Assembly (NCBI GenBank): GCA_944322615.1
Contig: CALUPH010000005.1
Coordinates: 62,001-126,000, forward strand
From: Candidatus Gastranaerophilales bacterium
GTDB taxonomy: Bacteria > Cyanobacteriota > Vampirovibrionia > Gastranaerophilales > Gastranaerophilaceae
Length of the DNA stretch: 64,000 bases
Reading direction: 5' to 3'
How positions within the stretch are numbered: the first letter of the stretch is position 1; the number at the start of each line of letters is the position of its first letter. The notes beneath the pieces were generated by a model that had not been told where the DNA came from, ran no database searches, and saw nothing but the letters and a program-made list of their open reading frames with translations. The translations under genes were made by a program, and so were the position numbers. This document shows, in pieces, positions 10,450 to 24,105 of this stretch.

Positions 10450-10480
10450 AAAAGAAAACTCTTTTGAGAGTTTTCTTTTT
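10450..10480. terminator. Bidirectional intrinsic terminator
   Basis: The stem AAAGAAAACTC / GAGTTTTCTTT with A- and T-runs sits between the convergent SLOG and FAD-oxidoreductase genes and can serve both. Confidence 0.85.
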
Positions 10481-11738
10481 AGTTGAATTTTTTTGCAATA
10501 TCTTTTGCTGCTGCTTCTCCCATTGAAAAACAACTTAGTTGAGTTCTCACAGCTGCTTGTGCCTCAAAATCCGCACTGATTATACGACCAATAGCGTATA
10601 CATTTTCATCTTTCTCTGCAATCAAGGTCTCAATAGGGATACTATAGGTATGATTTGTGTATTCAAGTTTATCGTTAGTTTTTGAGCTGGAATGTATGTC
10701 AATAGGGTAATTACAGGTAAATGCTATATTATCAAATTGTTTATTAGTTATAATATCTTCTTTTTTTAGAGTATATTTACCTTTAATTCTATAAGATTCT
10801 CTAACTCCAAGTGTGTCTGAAATATGTGATATAAAACAATTTTCAAAACCCGGGAAATATTTTTTACAGAAATTATAAATTCTATAAATTCTTTCTCTGC
10901 CTTGTTTTAAGGCTCTTGAATATACAAACGGATCTAAGAGATTTTCATAATTTTCCAATATAATCCTAGGACAATTAAATGCAAGTGAATTAGGCATTGA
11001 TTTGATGGAAAAAACCTGAAAATACGCAGTATCATTGAATGTTAGGTCGCCATTCTTGACGGCTTCCTTAAATATCGGTTCTAACGCCCACTTTCTGTTT
11101 TCATCCCAAGTATAGGCTGTAGAAAGATGTATTTCGTCGCCTGTATTATCAACTGTTGTAACATTTGTATCTTTATCAAGTTCTGTAATCCACTTTGAAA
11201 ATACTTTCAAATCAATATTTGACAATATAAATCTAAGTGTAGCTGCTTGTTGGTTTTCACTTTCATTTTGTAAATCTAATTTTAAAATTTTAAAAATCTC
11301 TGCGTTTGAAGTTGCGTCTACAATATAATCCGACTCGACATATATCGATAACATTTTATGCAATAAAGTAACATTATAGCAACTCTCCTTTGTTATATTT
11401 TGAACTTGAGTCGAGTAAAGAATATTACAATTAACAGAAGATAGCATATCATCCAGTACAATCTTCAATAGTTCCGGATTAAACCAGGCATCATTTGAAT
11501 CAATATAGGTGTAATTTGCATTATATTTGGCTGCAAAAGCTTTTAAATCCGTAAAAAATTCGCAGTTAATACCGTTGGTATCAACTTTCATCGAAGGAAC
11601 TACTAAACCCTGAGTTATTGCACCACCTAATACATCTGTTTTTTCTACTAAAAGTGTATGTAGTCCTTTTTTAGCAGCAATGTATGCACAAGCAACACCG
11701 GAAGTACCACCACCTACAATTATTAAATCAAATTTCAT
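10479..11738 (-). CDS. FAD-dependent oxidoreductase (FAD_oxidored type), substrate unknown
   Basis: 419 aa. A dinucleotide-binding fold starts at residue 3: I-I-V-G-G-G-T-S-G (6-14) with E32 at the end of the second strand, followed by V-L-G-G-A. The C-terminus has a second FAD contact (Y-A-I-G-R-I-I-S-A-D-F-E-A-Q-A-A-V-R). This matches the PF12831 group of soluble FAD enzymes found in anaerobes, whose substrates are mostly unknown. No partner gene lies beside it. Its upstream region carries a TATCG-rich element also found upstream of the response-regulator gene, so the two may be co-regulated. Confidence 0.8.
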   Translation of the reverse strand: MKFDLIIVGGGTSGVACAYIAAKKGLHTLLVEKTDVLGGAITQGLVVPSMKVDTNGINCEFFTDLKAFAAKYNANYTYIDSNDAWFNPELLKIVLDDMLSSVNCNILYSTQVQNITKESCYNVTLLHKMLSIYVESDYIVDATSNAEIFKILKLDLQNESENQQAATLRFILSNIDLKVFSKWITELDKDTNVTTVDNTGDEIHLSTAYTWDENRKWALEPIFKEAVKNGDLTFNDTAYFQVFSIKSMPNSLAFNCPRIILENYENLLDPFVYSRALKQGRERIYRIYNFCKKYFPGFENCFISHISDTLGVRESYRIKGKYTLKKEDIITNKQFDNIAFTCNYPIDIHSSSKTNDKLEYTNHTYSIPIETLIAEKDENVYAIGRIISADFEAQAAVRTQLSCFSMGEAAAKDIAKKFN

Positions 11739-11819
11739 AATTTTTACCTCTAAAAAAATTTTATTACATATTTTATTTAAAAAAAATTTTTTTATCTATC
11801 TTCACATTATATTACTAAT

Positions 11820-11886
11820 AGATACATAACGATAAAATATTTTTTAGGATGTATATATCGATAAAATATATAGCGATAAAAGTTGC
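11820..11886 (-). promoter_or_regulatory. TATCG-rich upstream element, copy A
   Basis: Read toward the FAD-oxidoreductase gene, this stretch holds TTATCGCT, ATCGATA and TTATCGTT boxes. It ends in ATTTTATCGTTATGTATCT (19 bp, minus strand 11838-11820), which is repeated exactly at 13011-13029 upstream of the response-regulator gene, in the same orientation relative to that gene. It is probably a shared operator; the binding protein is unknown. Confidence 0.5.
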
Positions 11887-11890
11887 AAAT

Positions 11891-12937
11891 TTACTGATTG
11901 AATAACTTTAAAAATTGAGTTCTGGAAATACGATTTGATGTTTTTGATTCTAAATCTCTATTTAACAAAATAGTAGAAGAATCGAAAGATAAAAGGGGAT
12001 CTTTGTAGGTTATTCCACTTCTTGTATTGATTAATTGAAAGTCATAATCTGAAAGAGGATTTATAATGAGATTTTTATTTTTTGATGCAATTGTTCCCAT
12101 ATCTGAATTATCAATAAATGTTTTACCAACAAAAAAGCCGAGTTCAACTAATGCACTTCTAAACGGTGTAGATTTTGAATAAGAAATTAAAATGGAATTA
12201 TCTTTCATTTTGTTTTTTATAAGTGACAAAAAGTCAATTGTCCAAAGCGTAGGATCTTTTTGAGATGAAAAAGCATCTAAAAAAACTATATCATATAGAT
12301 TATTTGTATTATTAATAGTTTTTCTAGCGTCCCCATAATAGTAGTTGATTTTAAATTCATTGTTATTAGTGGCTTCTTGACTGTAGATATTATTATCCGA
12401 TATATAATTATAATATATATTATGTAAGAACTCATTTATTTTCGATGAACCAATGTTTTTATAGGGGATATTTATCAATTTTTTAATAAATTCTATTATA
12501 TGAGGTGATAAAAATTGAATATAATCTGAATTTTCTAAATAACTTATCAGGCTTTTATAAGTTAAAATATCTTCTTTATTTTTTATTATTTGAAGAATAA
12601 TTTTAATCTTTAATAAATCATTATTAATATTATCCGCAATTAAAGGAGAAAGTAATACAAATTCCTTATCATATTCCAATGCATCTATTTGAATTGATAA
12701 ATTTTTTGTTTGATCTAAAAAAGTTTTTGTATTGTAGCCAATTCCATAACAAATATCCAACAAATTAATTTTAGAATTGCTTTCTTTTAATAAAACTAAT
12801 GTCGGTTGATAAAATTTATCATAAGCTTCTTTAAAGGCACCTGTTTGTGAATGAAAAATATCATTTACTTTTTTGCTGTATAAACCTACTGAATTATCAT
12901 CAGTAAATCTAAATTCTATTTTCTTAAACATATCCAT
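11891..12937 (-). CDS. MnmD-type tRNA wobble-uridine methyltransferase (MnmC N-terminal domain family)
   Basis: 348 aa. The SAM site is L-L-D-I-C-Y-G-I-G-Y-N (59-69), with an acidic E-Y-D after the second strand. The family signature is L-D-A-F-S-S-Q-K-D-P-x-L-W (220-232), then a strand with S-I-L-I-S-Y-S. This is the Methyltransf_30/MnmD module that methylates nm5(s2)U to mnm5(s2)U at tRNA position 34. The FAD domain of bifunctional MnmC is absent, as in many cyanobacteria and Firmicutes. An insert of about 85 residues (104-190) between the second and later strands makes it longer than simple MnmD proteins. TATCG-rich repeats flank it on both sides. Confidence 0.75.
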   Translation of the reverse strand: MDMFKKIEFRFTDDNSVGLYSKKVNDIFHSQTGAFKEAYDKFYQPTLVLLKESNSKINLLDICYGIGYNTKTFLDQTKNLSIQIDALEYDKEFVLLSPLIADNINNDLLKIKIILQIIKNKEDILTYKSLISYLENSDYIQFLSPHIIEFIKKLINIPYKNIGSSKINEFLHNIYYNYISDNNIYSQEATNNNEFKINYYYGDARKTINNTNNLYDIVFLDAFSSQKDPTLWTIDFLSLIKNKMKDNSILISYSKSTPFRSALVELGFFVGKTFIDNSDMGTIASKNKNLIINPLSDYDFQLINTRSGITYKDPLLSFDSSTILLNRDLESKTSNRISRTQFLKLFNQ

Positions 12938-12974
12938 AATTTTATTTTAATATAATTTAAATTTTTAAGCACAC

Positions 12975-13041
12975 GTTATCGATATATAGCTACGCGATAT
13001 AAGTAGTATAATTTTATCGTTATGTATCTCATCGATATTAT
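12975..13041 (+). promoter_or_regulatory. TATCG-rich upstream element, copy B
   Basis: It contains TTATCGATA, GCGATAT, TTATCGTT and ATCGATA boxes and the exact 19-mer shared with copy A (13011-13029). It lies about 150 bp upstream of the response-regulator start and also upstream of mnmD on the other strand, so it could act on either gene. Confidence 0.5.
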
Positions 13042-13185
13042 TTATAAATAAAAATTTTTTTAATTTAATTTTTTTTTTATTATAATTTTAATATTTTTTT
13101 TTAAATAAAAAAAAATGTCTACAAATATTTTAGAAGAGGGATAAAGAATATAAAATAAGCAAATAATATGTTTATGGAGGGAAAA

Positions 13186-13854
13186 ATGAAAGCTGAAAAC
13201 ATTAATATTATGTTAGTTGAAGACCATAAACTAATAAGAGTTGGAATTAGAACATTATTTGATGAAGCCGAGGGCTATACTGTAATAGGTGAGTCTTCAA
13301 GTGGCAAAGAGGCAATAGATAAAGCCTCAAAACTCTTGCCTGACATCATTTTGCTGGATTTAGGCTTGCCTGATATGAAAGGAACAAAAGTATTGAAAGA
13401 GCTTCAAGAGAAGGAATTAAACTCAAAAATTATTGTATTGTCTTCCCATATAGATGAAGATGAAATTATAAAATCGTTATCACTAGGCGCATACGCCTAC
13501 ATTATAAAAGATGTAAATACAGAGATGCTTCTATATATCGTCAAAAGTGTATACGAAGGTGCTATGTGGCTTGATCCTAAAATCGTACCGATTCTTAGAA
13601 ATAAACATGATTTCATTATTCCAATGAAACAAACTAACAGAGCTATGTTTAAAAATACACACGCTAATTTGACTCAAAGGGAATATGAAGTTTTAAAACT
13701 TGTTGTTGACGGTAAATCAAATAATGATATAGCAAAAGAACTTTGTATTAGTGAGCATACCGCGAAAGCCCATGTTTGTAATATTATTCAAAAACTTGTC
13801 GTTGATGATAGAACTCAAGCTGCAGTTAAGGCTTTAAAAGAAGGCATAGTATAA
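13186..13854 (+). CDS. NarL/FixJ family response regulator
   Basis: 222 aa. I chose the ATG at 13186 because GGAGGG lies directly before it; an in-frame ATG at 13168 has no such site. The receiver domain has E12-D13, phospho-acceptor D58 (I-L-L-D-L-G-L-P-D), S86/S87 and K108, all the residues needed for phosphorylation. The LuxR-type helix-turn-helix occupies 162-215 (L-T-Q-R-E-Y-E-V-L, D-I-A-K-E-L, H-T-A-K-A-H-V). No histidine kinase is adjacent, so its sensor is unlinked. Its long upstream region carries repeated TATCG boxes and could be autoregulated. The four-winged-helix GntR gene lies 101 bases downstream on the same strand. Confidence 0.88.
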   Translation: MKAENINIMLVEDHKLIRVGIRTLFDEAEGYTVIGESSSGKEAIDKASKLLPDIILLDLGLPDMKGTKVLKELQEKELNSKIIVLSSHIDEDEIIKSLSLGAYAYIIKDVNTEMLLYIVKSVYEGAMWLDPKIVPILRNKHDFIIPMKQTNRAMFKNTHANLTQREYEVLKLVVDGKSNNDIAKELCISEHTAKAHVCNIIQKLVVDDRTQAAVKALKEGIV

Positions 13855-13955: not shown

Positions 13956-15095
13956 ATGTCTAATAAAATTGAAGAGCAGAGAAAAATAAGCATAAATGAA
14001 CTTCCTGTTGATATTCCTGACTTTAGTTCTACATACGAACCTAAAGATTCAATAATAAAGAAATGGATTATTAATTGGATTTTAAGTGCAATATCTAAAA
14101 ATCAAATTAAAGAAAATGACATTTTGCCACATAAAAAGGATATTTCTGATCATTTAGGCGTAAGTATTGGTACTGTTCAGAATGCAATAAGATATGTTGA
14201 AGATGAAGGCTATTTAAAATCAAAACAAAGGCTTGGTACTATGATTTCTAATTTTTCCAATCCTTTGAAACATAATATTAAATTAACTTCAAAGAGAGAA
14301 AAAGCCATTTTAGCAATAAAAAAAGCAATTATACAAAAAGAATATAAAATAGGTAAGCCAATACCATCCACAAGAAAAATGTCTGAATTTCTAGGTATTT
14401 CTCAAAATACAACAAGACTGGCATATGAATATTTGTGTTCGATTGGAATATTAGAATCTATGCAAATGAGAGGAAATGATTCTAATTGGTATTTAAAAAC
14501 AATACCAAATATTTCAGGCAAAGAAGTTAAACAGATAGAGAATATGTCTGCTGACACACTAGTATTCAAGCTAACAAGTGAGTTAAAGGTATTTCTTGCT
14601 GAAAATTTCACTATTGGAGAAAAAATACCTTCACATGAAGAATTAGCTTCGAAACTAAATGTAAGCATAAAAACCATACATGATTGCGTGAAACAATTAA
14701 ACAGAGAAGGTATTGTTATTTCAAGAAGAGGAAGATATGGTAGCGTTCTTGCTCAAAATCCATTATCTCCGGCATTTGAACCGTTAAAAGAAAGTTCAAT
14801 ATTTGCAAAGGCTGAAGATGCTGCATTCTATAGCTACCAAAAAATTGAAAGTCAGCTTGTTAATTTAATAAATAAAAATTACAAAGCAGGTGATAAATTG
14901 CCTTCTATAAAAGATTTGGCAATCAAGTATGATGTTAGTACAAATACGATAAGAAAAGCTCTTTTATCTCTAGAACAAGAAGGCTTTATAACATTCGGCA
15001 GAGGAAGATTTGGCGGTACATTTGTTATAGAAAAGCCTGAAACTACTGAAAAACAATCATATCAATGGCTTTCTATTAACCCAAATTATATTTAA
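13956..15095 (+). CDS. Regulator built of four tandem GntR-type winged helices
   Basis: 379 aa with no recognisable effector-binding or aminotransferase domain. Four copies of the GntR DNA-binding pattern can be laid over each other: about 31-100 (L-P-H-K-K-D-I-S-D-H-L-G-V-S, then E-D-E-G-Y-L), 113-182 (I-P-S-T-R-K-M-S-E-F-L-G-I-S), 202-268 (I-P-S-H-E-E-L-A-S-K-L-N-V-S, then R-E-G-I-V) and 290-360 (L-P-S-I-K-D-L-A-I-K-Y-D-V-S, then E-Q-E-G-F-I). Copies 3 and 4 keep the wing G-R-[YF]-G; copy 2 is most diverged. The usual GntR protein has one such domain plus a ligand domain. Ribosome-binding site CGGAG precedes the ATG. Possible functions are a multi-site DNA binder or a nucleoid-type regulator. 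Confidence 0.8.
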   Translation: MSNKIEEQRKISINELPVDIPDFSSTYEPKDSIIKKWIINWILSAISKNQIKENDILPHKKDISDHLGVSIGTVQNAIRYVEDEGYLKSKQRLGTMISNFSNPLKHNIKLTSKREKAILAIKKAIIQKEYKIGKPIPSTRKMSEFLGISQNTTRLAYEYLCSIGILESMQMRGNDSNWYLKTIPNISGKEVKQIENMSADTLVFKLTSELKVFLAENFTIGEKIPSHEELASKLNVSIKTIHDCVKQLNREGIVISRRGRYGSVLAQNPLSPAFEPLKESSIFAKAEDAAFYSYQKIESQLVNLINKNYKAGDKLPSIKDLAIKYDVSTNTIRKALLSLEQEGFITFGRGRFGGTFVIEKPETTEKQSYQWLSINPNYI

Positions 15096-15535: not shown

Positions 15536-16291
15536 ATGTTAAAAAAGACTATAAAACTAATTATATTAATCTTCTTATTTCTATTCGTACATTGTTACTC
15601 ATATTCTGTAGAAGAAGAGACATTAGTTATTTTTGATGCTTCTGTAAGTATGCTCGATGACTTTGGTGGTGCTCCAAAATATATAACAGCAGTAAACGAA
15701 ACAAAAAATGTTTTAAATATGATGCCAGAAACAAAGAAAATTGGTCTTCGAACTATAGGTGTTACGATTGATGAGGCTTTTTTCTCTCTAATTACAAACC
15801 CTTCAAATCTATGTAAATCTACAAAACTACTTGTTCCGATTAGAGGAAATAGCATTGAATACATAAAGAATAGTTTAGACTCTATTTTTCCGCTTGGAAC
15901 TACGCCATTAACATATACACTCGATTTAGCAATAAATTATGACTTTACAAATGCATATGTATTAAAACATATAATACTAATTACTGATGGGGCAGAGAGC
16001 TGTGACGGAGATCCTTGTAAGTATATTAGAGAGCTTATGGCTGTAAGAAAAGATATTAAGATTGATATCTTAGCAATAGGAGTTAATAAAGAAGATTTTT
16101 CACAGTTGAGATGTTTAACTGATTCAACAAATGGAACAATTGTTAATATAACAAAACCTGATGAGTTTAAGCGGGCTTTTTCTAATTTTTTTATGCCTAC
16201 ATCAAATATAGATGTTGAATCTGGTTTTAATAAAATAAAGAAAGCACCAAATATTATATATAAAAATTATCATATAGAAACTTATAATTAG
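15536..16291 (+). CDS. Exported VWA-domain protein, copy 1 of 3
   Basis: 251 aa. The N-terminus (K-K-T then about 15 hydrophobic residues) is a signal peptide or anchor. The von Willebrand A domain has a MIDAS-type motif D34-A-S36-V-S38 and the strand I-L-I-T-D-G-A-E-S-C with D151. Cysteines C156 and C161 (C-D-G-D-P-C) probably form a small disulfide loop, conserved in the two following paralogues. It should be periplasmic or surface exposed and bind a divalent metal and a protein partner. The start has no clear Shine-Dalgarno, and GTTAAAAT lies just upstream. It is the most diverged of the three tandem copies. Confidence 0.8.
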   Translation: MLKKTIKLIILIFLFLFVHCYSYSVEEETLVIFDASVSMLDDFGGAPKYITAVNETKNVLNMMPETKKIGLRTIGVTIDEAFFSLITNPSNLCKSTKLLVPIRGNSIEYIKNSLDSIFPLGTTPLTYTLDLAINYDFTNAYVLKHIILITDGAESCDGDPCKYIRELMAVRKDIKIDILAIGVNKEDFSQLRCLTDSTNGTIVNITKPDEFKRAFSNFFMPTSNIDVESGFNKIKKAPNIIYKNYHIETYN

Positions 16292-16328
16292 TGACTTATT
16301 ATTTAGTTTTTGGTAAACTTATATAGTA

Positions 16329-17186
16329 ATGAGTATTTGTGCATTTAGAATTATATTAATTTTATTATTTTTTTTGTTTTCTTTTTTTACTGAATCATAT
16401 TCGTATCAAGCTCTTGATGGGAAATATAATTATAATCAGTTTCACGAAAGTAATGAATATAATGTACCAATAAAAGAAGGTGAAGAGGAAGTTCTTTTTA
16501 TTGTTGATTTTTCAAATAGTATGAATAAAAAAATGGGGTATATATCCAAAGCATATCATGCCATTGATTCGATAAGAAGAATATTAAATAATTCAGGTGA
16601 TCGTACAAAAATAGGACTACGAATATTTGGCGTAACCGATAAACCAATAATTCAACGAGATAGGGATGGATATTCTTGGCATAAAGAAAATTTATGTACT
16701 GCCTCAACCTTAGTTATGCCAATAGCGAGATATAATGCTGAAAATATTTCAGATAAATTAGGACAATTAAATCCACAAGGGGTTTCTCCTATAGGTTATT
16801 CACTAAGGCAAGCTGTGCAAAATGATTTTTCTCCTTCTGCAAAATTAAAGCATATTATTTTGGTAACAGATGGTGCTGAAAACTGTGGTGATGACCCTTG
16901 CTTGTTTATAAAACGATTAGTAAAACTTAGAGATGATATAAAAATTGATGTAATAGGCATTACTGTGGATGAAAATGCTTATTCGCAATTGAATTGTCTT
17001 TCTGTACAAACAAAAGGAAATTATTATACTGTTAATACCCCGGAAGATTTTAAGATAAAGTTTGAACAAGCATTTTATTCTTCTCCTCAAAAGATTTCAA
17101 AAACTCAAAAAATAATTACTCAAACATATTCCCCATCTCAACAAGGAATAAAATACAAAAATTTTGTCATTGAATTTGATGATTAA
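16329..17186 (+). CDS. Exported VWA-domain protein, copy 2 of 3
   Basis: 285 aa, with a very hydrophobic N-terminus (about 5-22) acting as signal or anchor. The VWA domain starts at V-L-F-I-V-D60-F-S62-N-S64-M, the metal site, and continues to I-L-V-T-D-G-A-E-N-C-G-D-D-P-C. Compared with copy 1 it carries a short N-terminal spacer rich in Tyr/Asn and a longer tail. It is clearly a duplicate of copy 3 (shared V-D-F-S-N-S-M-N and A-E/G-E-N-C). It lies 37 bases after copy 1 with a TATATAG-like box in the gap, so it may have its own promoter. Partner and function are unknown. Confidence 0.82.
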   Translation: MSICAFRIILILLFFLFSFFTESYSYQALDGKYNYNQFHESNEYNVPIKEGEEEVLFIVDFSNSMNKKMGYISKAYHAIDSIRRILNNSGDRTKIGLRIFGVTDKPIIQRDRDGYSWHKENLCTASTLVMPIARYNAENISDKLGQLNPQGVSPIGYSLRQAVQNDFSPSAKLKHIILVTDGAENCGDDPCLFIKRLVKLRDDIKIDVIGITVDENAYSQLNCLSVQTKGNYYTVNTPEDFKIKFEQAFYSSPQKISKTQKIITQTYSPSQQGIKYKNFVIEFDD

Positions 17187-17281
17187 TTATAATGTCTTTA
17201 TTTCTATAAAATTCTAAACGAAAGTATAATGACATTAAATATAATTTTTGTTAGTATAATCAAAGAATATAAGAGTGTAAT

Positions 17282-18022
17282 ATGAAAAAGTTTTTTGTTT
17301 TTATATTTTTGTTTTTTATATTTGTAAATGCTACGAATGCGGAGCCAAATTTCACATATACAACTCCTGATAATTATAAATATACAAAACCGGATTTTTC
17401 AAATAGTAGTAATTCTCGTGAAAAAATTCTTTTTATAGTAGATTTTTCCAATAGTATGAATGAAAGGCTTGGTCATCGAACCAAATTGGATATTGCATTA
17501 TCAACTATGAAAGAAACATTACAGCAACTTCCACAAAATGTAGAAGTTGGATTAAGAGTTTATGGTCATAGAACAGGTTTTACACCAAGACAAAGTTGTA
17601 CTGCTTCTCAACTTGTATCACCAATACAGCCAAATAATGCATACAATATTTATTCCAGATTAAATTCAATAAACGCTGTTGGTTGGACACCTATAACTTA
17701 TTCTTTAAAACAAGCAGCCTTTTCTGATTTTAACGATACTACCTCAAAAAAAAGGATTATATTAATAAGTGATGGCGGTGAAAACTGCGATGAAAGTCCG
17801 TGTGATTTCATTATAGAATTAATGAAATATAGAGATGATATAAGAATAGATGTAATTGCACTGGCAATTGGTGATCAAGACGCTAATAATCAATTAAAAT
17901 GTGTAGCTCTTGTTACATCAGGTAAATTTTATAATGCAAATACAGCCGCTGAATTGAAAAATAGTTTGCAAGATTCTCTCAATTTAGAAAAAGAAGTCCA
18001 AGGTGTTATTTTAAATCAATAA
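17282..18022 (+). CDS. Exported VWA-domain protein, copy 3 of 3
   Basis: 246 aa. A typical Sec signal peptide (M-K-K, hydrophobic core, A-T-N-A cut site near residue 20) precedes a Tyr/Thr-rich spacer, then the VWA domain with D54-F-S56-N-S58-M and I-L-I-S-D-G-G-E-N-C-D-E-S-P-C. The region 82-90 reads L-R-V-Y-G-H-R, typical of bacterial VWA proteins of the CaCC-like group. TATAAT at 17255-17260, 22 bases before the start, looks like a promoter -10 box, so this copy is probably separately transcribed. A bidirectional terminator follows. Confidence 0.85.
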   Translation: MKKFFVFIFLFFIFVNATNAEPNFTYTTPDNYKYTKPDFSNSSNSREKILFIVDFSNSMNERLGHRTKLDIALSTMKETLQQLPQNVEVGLRVYGHRTGFTPRQSCTASQLVSPIQPNNAYNIYSRLNSINAVGWTPITYSLKQAAFSDFNDTTSKKRIILISDGGENCDESPCDFIIELMKYRDDIRIDVIALAIGDQDANNQLKCVALVTSGKFYNANTAAELKNSLQDSLNLEKEVQGVILNQ

Positions 18023-22704: not shown

Positions 22705-22745
22705 GTAGGTTGGGTTTTGGGGTACACTTCAAAAACCCAACCTAC
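22705..22745. repeat. Solo IS-end-like hairpin
   Basis: A perfect 14-bp stem GTAGGTTGGGTTTT / AAAACCCAACCTAC encloses a loop GGGGTACACTTCA. The complement contains TTGAAGTGTACCCCAAAA, which is also in the terminal repeat of the IS3 remnant at 23371. The preceding GTAAGTAGGTTGGG is also found in front of that element. It looks like a solo end, or a small non-autonomous relative. Confidence 0.6.
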
Positions 22746-23370: not shown

Positions 23371-23745
23371 GTTGGGCATATTTGAAGTGTACCCCAAAAA
23401 CTATAATCAATCAGTAGGATGATTGTAAATACTGTCTAAATCCATTAGGTGTCATTTTGTTTAACCCCCATTGGTACCTTCTTGTATTGTAATAATATAT
23501 GTATTTATCTATTTTGTCACGTATTTCTTCCAAAGTTTTACACTCCTTGTATTCTACTTCGTCTTTTAAATGTCCAAAGAAACTCTCTATTGGTGCATTA
23601 TCTAAACAATTACCACTTCTCGACATTGAACGGGCTAAATTTAATTGTTTTCTCATATTTTTTCTCCTTTATTTTTTATTATTATATGTGAAACTTGCCT
23701 ACTGATTGATTACGTTTTTGTGGGTACACTTCATATTTGCCCAAC
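23371..23745 (-). mobile_element. Internally deleted IS3-family element (375 bp) with long terminal inverted repeats
   Basis: The terminal repeats are about 48 bp: 23371-23418 and the complement of 23698-23745, both beginning GTTGGGCA, sharing GAAGTGTACCC and ending AATCAATCAGTAGG, with a few mismatches. Between them lies one short frame carrying only the end of an IS3 OrfB transposase. I see no clear target-site duplication. It cannot transpose by itself but may be mobilised by a full copy elsewhere. Confidence 0.75.
23411..23656 (-). pseudogene. IS3 transposase remnant: start fused to OrfB C-terminus
   Basis: 81 codons, ATG preceded by AAAGGAG (7-base spacing). The first few residues (M-R-K-Q-L-N) look like an IS3 OrfA start. 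From about residue 10 it reads S-M-S-R-S-G-N-C-L-D-N-A-P-I-E-S-F-F, the rve C-terminal block with the last catalytic Glu, and continues to Y-Y-N-T-R-R and the usual end. The D-D part of the DDE site and all of the middle are gone. The simplest reading is one internal deletion joining orfA to orfB in frame. The stop lies within the terminal repeat. Confidence 0.78.
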
Positions 23746-23893: not shown

Positions 23894-23913
23894 GTTAAAT
23901 GGTGCCACGTCTC
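23894..23913 (-). repeat. Duplicate of tRNA-Phe 3' end (att-like repeat)
   Basis: GTTAAATGGTGCCACGTCTC is identical to 24024-24043, which is the 3' end of tRNA-Phe plus 6 bases behind it. A 3'-end duplication beside a tRNA is the usual scar of a tRNA-targeting integrase. The 110 bases between hold an AAAACGAT/ATCGTTTT hairpin but no gene. Confidence 0.65.
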
Positions 23914-24002: not shown

Positions 24003-24026
24003 AAAAAAACAGGCATTTAGCCTGTT
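24003..24026 (-). terminator. Terminator of tRNA-Phe
   Basis: The 7-bp stem AACAGGC / GCCTGTT with T7 on the minus strand ends 4 bases from the tRNA 3' end. Confidence 0.8.
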
Positions 24027-24029
24027 AAA

Positions 24030-24105
24030 TGGTGCCACGTCTCGGAATCGAACCAAGGACACAGGGATTTTCAGTCCCTTGCTCTACCAACTGAGCTAAC
24101 GTGGC
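24030..24105 (-). tRNA. tRNA-Phe (anticodon GAA)
   Basis: 76 nt with CCA encoded. Acceptor GCCACGT pairs with ACGTGGC; the D-loop has AGCTCAGTTGGTAGAGC, the anticodon loop CTGAAAA gives GAA, and the T-loop is GGTTCGATTCC. It is a single gene with its own terminator. Its 3' end is duplicated 130 bp away. Confidence 0.96.

Follow-up and report, generated by a model that had tools for sequence, protein, structure and literature searches.

In the window, that is, the whole 64,000-nt stretch of DNA that was analysed, an element of about 33 bp, TTATCR-4-ATATCK-3-MGATAT, was found in five copies, all at one locus: two before the gene of an FAD-dependent oxidoreductase (designated FAD), two before that of a response regulator (RR), and one inside FAD. 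The same element was observed in the promoter region and the coding sequence of FAD and MnmD genes, and the sites probably constitute a multi-operator array for a single dedicated regulator, a sequence-specific DNA-binding protein that would putatively control FAD and usually also mnmD.

Organization of the locus

FAD (PF12831; nt 10479-11738, minus strand) was the most constant companion of the array. Beside it lie mnmD (nt 11891-12937, minus strand), encoding an MnmC2-like methyltransferase (PF05430), which is the usual partner of FAD and whose strand is clade-dependent, and the gene of the NarL/FixJ-type RR (nt 13186-13854, plus strand), a weak candidate for the binder of the sites. RR is adjoined by a gene (nt 13956-15095) for a GntR-type protein of 379 residues with four tandem winged helices (wHTH) and no Pfam effector domain; this protein had a match, nearly always single, in 143 of the 146 family genomes and also in Vampirovibrio, and a literature search on tandem GntR gave no papers. 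Downstream of it, nt 15536-18022 contain a series of related VWA-type, exported-looking proteins. Within the genus, the order UvrD, DprA-like, FAD, MnmD, RR, GntR-type, VWA was kept in most loci where the contig reaches, with exceptions including L112, in which RR had none of the other genes beside it, and L113, in which FAD was further off. The named relatives of the locus were MAGs of Candidatus Gastranaerophilales and Candidatus Avigastranaerophilus. Promoter-like matches in the region were no more numerous than expected by chance.

FAD and an MnmC2-like methyltransferase were both present in 48 of the 60 fetched family stretches, some of the remaining stretches being contig ends. The pair is possibly an unfused counterpart of MnmC, involved in tRNA wobble-uridine modification, with a different oxidase family. 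A fold model of the FAD protein (mean pLDDT 90.8; residues 130-141 forming a strand) retrieved halogenases, monooxygenases, and reductases at 8-13% identity and no MnmC among the best 50 matches, and its identification as a structural MnmC oxidase was rejected. Searched against a defence-system library, FAD and MnmD had no match, while RR and the GntR-type protein gave matches up to E 2.6e-11 that covered helix-turn-helix or receiver segments.

The element and its five sites

The earlier note had described a 19-mer, AGATACATAACGATAAAAT, occurring exactly at nt 11820-11838 and inverted at nt 13011-13029, each copy preceding FAD or RR in an identical orientation relative to the gene, with mnmD between them. 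Both the repeat and its arrangement were confirmed; the description was partial, however, since the 19-mer is the core of the longer element and the site inside FAD (nt 11323-11355) had been missed. The FAD-proximal site (nt 11807-11839, minus strand; 26.7 bits with the own clade left out of the profile, whole-genome E 1.1e-4) holds the first 19-mer copy, and the FAD-distal site (nt 11851-11883, minus strand; 23.7 bits, E 2.1e-4) lies 44 bp further upstream. In the divergent gap between mnmD and RR, a distal site (nt 12972-13004, plus strand; 20.7 bits, E 0.063) is followed by the RR-proximal site (nt 13010-13042, plus strand; 30.0 bits, E 3.3e-7), which holds the inverted copy. The intragenic site, on the minus strand, spans about codons 128-139 of FAD and scored 22.8 bits, again with its own clade left out.

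The profile was built from the region of the RR orthologue in 38 further genus genomes and the window, two of the 41 genomes (G004 and G012) being without an orthologue. These gave 70 gap sequences, 39 RR-side and 31 FAD-side (eight FAD-side gaps were missing), on which a profile seeded by a consensus read by eye was iterated, yielding 113 matches in 64 of the gaps. Of the six gaps without a match, three were RR-side and came from fragmented or rearranged contigs; the other three were long FAD-side gaps represented only by their last 260 bases, and in these three loci sites were found further out. The consensus was ATATTATCGTTATATATCTAATAGATATA in the genus and ATATTATCGGTATATATCGAATCGATATA in other genera. 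We read the element as three putative half-sites (T/A)TATC(G/T): TTATCR is followed one helical turn on by ATATCK, so that two direct half-sites stand at a 10-bp pitch, and the third, MGATAT, is inverted after 3 bp. Dyad symmetry was weak, with correlations of 0.33 and 0.22 at the ATATCK/MGATAT centre and equal or better values at other centres.

To guard against circularity, the window and its nearest relatives were withheld and a profile was trained on the 97 of the 113 sites that remained; it still placed all five window sites at the top (30.0, 26.7, 23.7, 22.8, and 20.7 bits), followed by a sixth match of 13.7 bits in mnmD and a seventh of 9.4 bits; none of 40 shuffled windows contained a site of at least 14 bits. 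Paired promoter sites, as read off the profile matches, were mostly 31-60 bp apart without a single helical phase, and the spacing between site clusters varied from about 400 to 3300 bp among the 20 high-ranking family loci. A regular periodicity of about 500 bp seen in the genus was not kept in other genera and was discarded.

A bare 19-mer is unimpressive at the scale of the window, because about 1.3 repeated 19-mers are expected per dinucleotide-shuffled 64-kb window; other exact repeats in the window include one of 19 bp (nt 22715-22733 and 23381-23399) and one of 20 bp (nt 23894-23913 and 24024-24043). A shared word of at least 19 letters between the two gaps, on the other hand, was obtained in none of 2000 shuffles of the gaps. 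Scanned with up to three mismatches, the inner 17-mer had only two perfect copies in the 1.96-Mb genome (96% complete), the next-best matches having two mismatches; many copies in unrelated genes, which the earlier note had named as the outcome that would speak against a regulatory role, were looked for genome-wide and did not occur. Of the TATCG boxes stressed in that note, the longer shared element held up, whereas single TTATCG words were not clearly enriched in the window (30 versus 23.4 expected; 30 was reached in 10 of 100 shuffles). Likewise, a 13-bp box with up to one mismatch was not enriched genome-wide (61 matches versus 82 for the reversed control), while five of the eight exact matches of the genome were at this locus. 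The significant unit is the full element of about 33 bp rather than the single boxes.

Distribution in the genus and family

Whole genomes were scored with a model of the sequence only, applied to the top candidates from a permissive preliminary scan, namely 150 per genome for the own genome and the genus and 48 per genome for the family. Among the best 150 of 4329 candidates in the own genome, the five best matches were all at this locus (E 3.3e-7, 1.1e-4, 2.1e-4, 0.055, and 0.063) and the next had an E of 0.14. Matches at E of 0.1 or below were obtained in 40 of 41 genus genomes (best 150 candidates each), and matches at E of 0.02 or below in 108 of 146 genomes of the family, which belongs to Gastranaerophilales, representing 36 of its 41 genera (best 48 candidates each). 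All 20 high-ranking family loci were at FAD and/or MnmD, 19 of them with FAD. A further 40 stretches, comprising 34 other family matches and six genus matches on contigs other than the RR contig, included 39 at FAD and/or MnmD (36 with FAD), the exception being L460 (G037, E 0.0057). In total, 59 of the 60 fetched stretches were thus at FAD and/or MnmD, and neighbours other than these two genes changed between genera while the array stayed with them. The element accompanies FAD, usually together with mnmD, and not RR. That this shared cis-element is confined to the one locus is strongly supported by the genome-wide scores.

Twenty-two genomes were picked for having no model match (or E 0.09). 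No FAD match was obtained in eight of them (G004, G012, G044, G071, G079, G081, G093, and G108, of which only G012 and G081 were more than 90% complete), and FAD was present in 14; because of this selection, the joint loss of array and FAD is only weakly tested. Some genomes without model matches carry diverged arrays: among the 20 FAD genes L416-L435, which comprised these 14 and six others and had mostly been selected because matches were weak or missing, 14 possessed an intragenic site of at least 14 bits, in 13 near the usual place and in L421 elsewhere in the gene. Such a site was absent in the other six, as well as in L352, L363, and L443.

The site inside FAD

Most FAD genes of the family have a site at the corresponding position. 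Within the genus, 29 FAD genes were examined, and in every one the best match in the gene began at codon 128 or 131, although the profile had been trained on gaps only; in 28 of these genes it beat all 60 synonymous shuffles. Among 138 copies of five control genes, only one did so (UvrD 1/18, DprA-like 0/27, RR 0/39, GntR-type 0/36, and VWA 0/18). In a wider set, in which the genus genes were included again, 60 of 66 FAD genes beat all 100 synonymous shuffles; since the genes share ancestry, these counts are not independent trials. The best site was on the sense strand in one frame in 57 of the 66, antisense near the same place in six (one of them, L429, weak), where the peptide is different, and elsewhere in the gene in three (L363, L418, and L421).

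Codon choice told the same story at single positions. The LSxY motif occurred once in 49 of the 66 genes and was absent or multiple in the other 17; in the 49, the Ser131 codon was TCG in 28 and TCA in 21, and none of the other four serine codons was used, which elsewhere make up 57.5% of serine codons; TCG elsewhere accounts for 7.2%. The Ser/Thr codon that follows ended in G in 33 of 36 cases. The intragenic FAD site is under DNA-level selection and is not kept merely as a peptide. These findings suggest that putative protein-binding sites are maintained within the protein-coding sequence itself.

Sites in mnmD and inversion of the gene

The evidence was more mixed in mnmD. The best site in 59 MnmD genes was mid-gene on the sense strand in 48, of which 10 beat all synonymous shuffles, and antisense, nearer the N-terminus and mostly within an insertion, in 11, of which eight did so. 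The mid-gene site falls on the nearly invariant peptide HNIYYNYIS, which may largely account for it; the possible weak copy in the window (nt 12385-12417, minus strand; 13.7 bits) may likewise be only the codons of this peptide. Compared with Aquifex MnmC2 (3vyw), MnmD has an insertion of about 70 residues; several other genera have MnmD proteins that are longer in the N-terminal half, and antisense-strand copies of the element lie in that part.

Between unchanged neighbours, mnmD was flipped in nine of the 36 genus loci having the gene (L094, L105, L109, L110, L115, L117, L119, L121, and L122). Orientation followed the tree (midpoint root, no outgroup; one of 39 rows, L112, dropped for having fewer than 400 residues), eight of the nine plus-strand loci falling in one clade. 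Phase variation was accordingly rejected, and the inversion is, as judged from this tree, old and clade-fixed. Where mnmD is inverted, the element stays with FAD and RR, and the array also persists in loci without mnmD (L216, L354, L363, L365, L449, L450, and L455).

Proposed function

The sites would be operators, both promoter-proximal and intragenic, for a single dedicated regulator of FAD (and MnmD). The bound protein is envisaged to occupy the two kinds of site together and to bridge or loop a region of 1.7 kb here, and of up to several kb elsewhere, thereby setting FAD/MnmD transcription; where RR is a neighbour, its promoter would fall within the array. Control by auxiliary operators predicts what was observed, namely upstream and intragenic sites that are locus-specific and under DNA-level selection, and is the best reading. 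The variable spacing of clusters and the lack of a single helical phase argue against one rigid loop. Outward strand polarity was found in 59 of 80 loci with at least three sites, versus about 20 expected for random strands. Strict polarity was rejected, as it held for 18 of 19 high-ranking loci with at least three sites but not consistently among further loci (19 of 29) or those of the genus (22 of 32), and a mere tendency fits a partly symmetric protein site better than a directional signal.

A bolder form of this proposal, which we advance as a speculation with the balance against it, is one-locus gene-body control, in which a putative binding protein would be devoted to one enzyme locus and its sites, including antisense ones in in-frame MnmD insertions, would have become embedded in the coding regions of the two enzymes and held across many genera, bending protein evolution. 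Independently of this bolder form, if the sites are operators as proposed, the coding sequence of a conserved enzyme would be held to a DNA site family-wide at the cost of codon choice, and such a case would offer a well-defined system for studying the constraints that regulation places on protein genes. The FAD/MnmD pair would also be marked as controlled in Gastranaerophilales, a group for which no paper on gene regulation was found in the literature searched (titles and abstract starts).

Alternative explanations

The earlier note had proposed that the NarL-type RR binds the sites and regulates its own gene and FAD as a local regulon, which we consider possible though doubtful. An RR orthologue, with at least 51% identity and above the paralogues, was present in every array-bearing genome tested, RR adjoins FAD in ten genera (g1, g13, g34, g27, g20, g6, g3, g38, g22, and g37), and the two genus genomes without FAD and array (G004 and G012) were also without the orthologue. 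Furthermore, ATATCK-3-MGATAT, within the element, forms an inverted repeat, an arrangement common for LuxR-type dimers. Against this, none of 20 RR orthologues that were distant from FAD/MnmD, or whose genomes had no FAD, possessed a site of at least 9 bits in loci of 3.3-3.7 kb, while six of nine RR genes with FAD within about 2-3 kb had one no more than 320 bp upstream, so autoregulation, also suggested in the note, is not a conserved property; of the local regulon, the shared element confined to the locus stands, but it tracks FAD and not RR. Orthologues persist, moreover, in genomes without FAD or sites (G081, G044, and G079), and RR therefore serves some other function and may not be the protein that binds the sites; it would be the best named candidate, if a weak one. 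The neighbouring GntR-type protein is a very unlikely binder. Its four DNA-binding domains could cover a long element with several half-sites, and its gene is linked to the array in g1 and g13, but it was unlinked in the 19 other family loci fetched outside these genera, a match was absent in the array-bearing genomes G095 and G153, and the protein is present where FAD and array are missing.

Silencers that nucleate within gene bodies and bridge DNA, like H-NS on E. coli proU, offer another model. The sequence TTATCGATATATA is present in two of the five sites; it includes TCGATATAT, which is close to the published H-NS site TCGATATATT, and for proU bridged regulatory elements are described on both sides of the start. 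In GC content, mnmD (0.235) is AT-rich relative to the window (0.286), as fits a silencer target, but FAD (0.315) is not. Silencers act at many loci, in contrast to the one locus per genome found here, and about 30 bp of specificity far exceeds the needs of a minor-groove protein; the model is thus improbable. We give equally little credence to a chromosome-structural array, centromere-like or a terminus or fork trap, with no role in FAD/MnmD regulation. A single locus with sites in coding and non-coding DNA would fit it, and the own genome had neither an HTH_ParB match nor a parS with 0-1 mismatches; degenerate parS elsewhere is possible, as parS-like palindromes with 2-3 mismatches occurred at 42 places in this genome versus 14 for the reversed control. 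Yet the array follows FAD/MnmD while other neighbours vary between genera, and its outward polarity is only the tendency described above. A ParB-parS centromere was rejected on these data from the own genome, and so was a replication terminus or origin: GC skew did not change at the array (own contig C5 less 2 kb; 320 kb of G029), no dif-like site was found in the window, and the sites were not strictly polar. Least probable of all is that the element is a dispersed mobile repeat or acts as an RNA-level signal in transcripts. Inversion of the copies around mnmD, from which the earlier note had drawn a possible mobile origin, would fit the former, but the best 150 of 4329 candidates in the own genome included no further significant copy, and site positions are conserved across genera. 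The many sense-strand sites would fit the latter, but sites antisense to the gene that carries them occur in FAD and MnmD of several genera; these, together with a C at model position 23 that in the profile, inspected by eye, frequently occurs with no complementary base at position 19, disfavour an RNA hairpin, which was rejected. The mobile-repeat, replication-terminus, and RNA readings of the element fit poorly.

Comparison with known systems

No description of the array was found in the literature searched (titles and abstract starts, most subscription journals being outside its scope). To our knowledge, intragenic operators are known singly; lac O2, for example, lies inside lacZ. With the lac operon of E. 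coli, for which the operators O1, O2, and O3 are described (PMC3922697), the array proposed here would share primary and auxiliary operators and one dedicated regulator, here a presumed one, at one locus. It differs in that there are often two sites per promoter side, that the intragenic site is kept across many genera of a family, and that sites in coding sequence may be on either strand.

ParB-parS centromeres are clusters of sites at one chromosomal place that also lie inside genes, and the array resembles them as a cluster of sequence-specific sites at one place, some intragenic. Unlike in that system, the motif is not that of parS, no gene of the own genome matches HTH_ParB, and the array goes with two metabolic-type genes. 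H-NS, in turn, is a global protein of loose specificity, while the sites of about 33 bp described here are significant at one locus only. In E. coli proU (proVWX), URE and DRE elements around the start are bridged under H-NS control (PMC3219716, PMC10656529). The likeness to proU lies in paired elements around the start with a core similar to TCGATATATT, and in bridging, which is reported there and proposed here.
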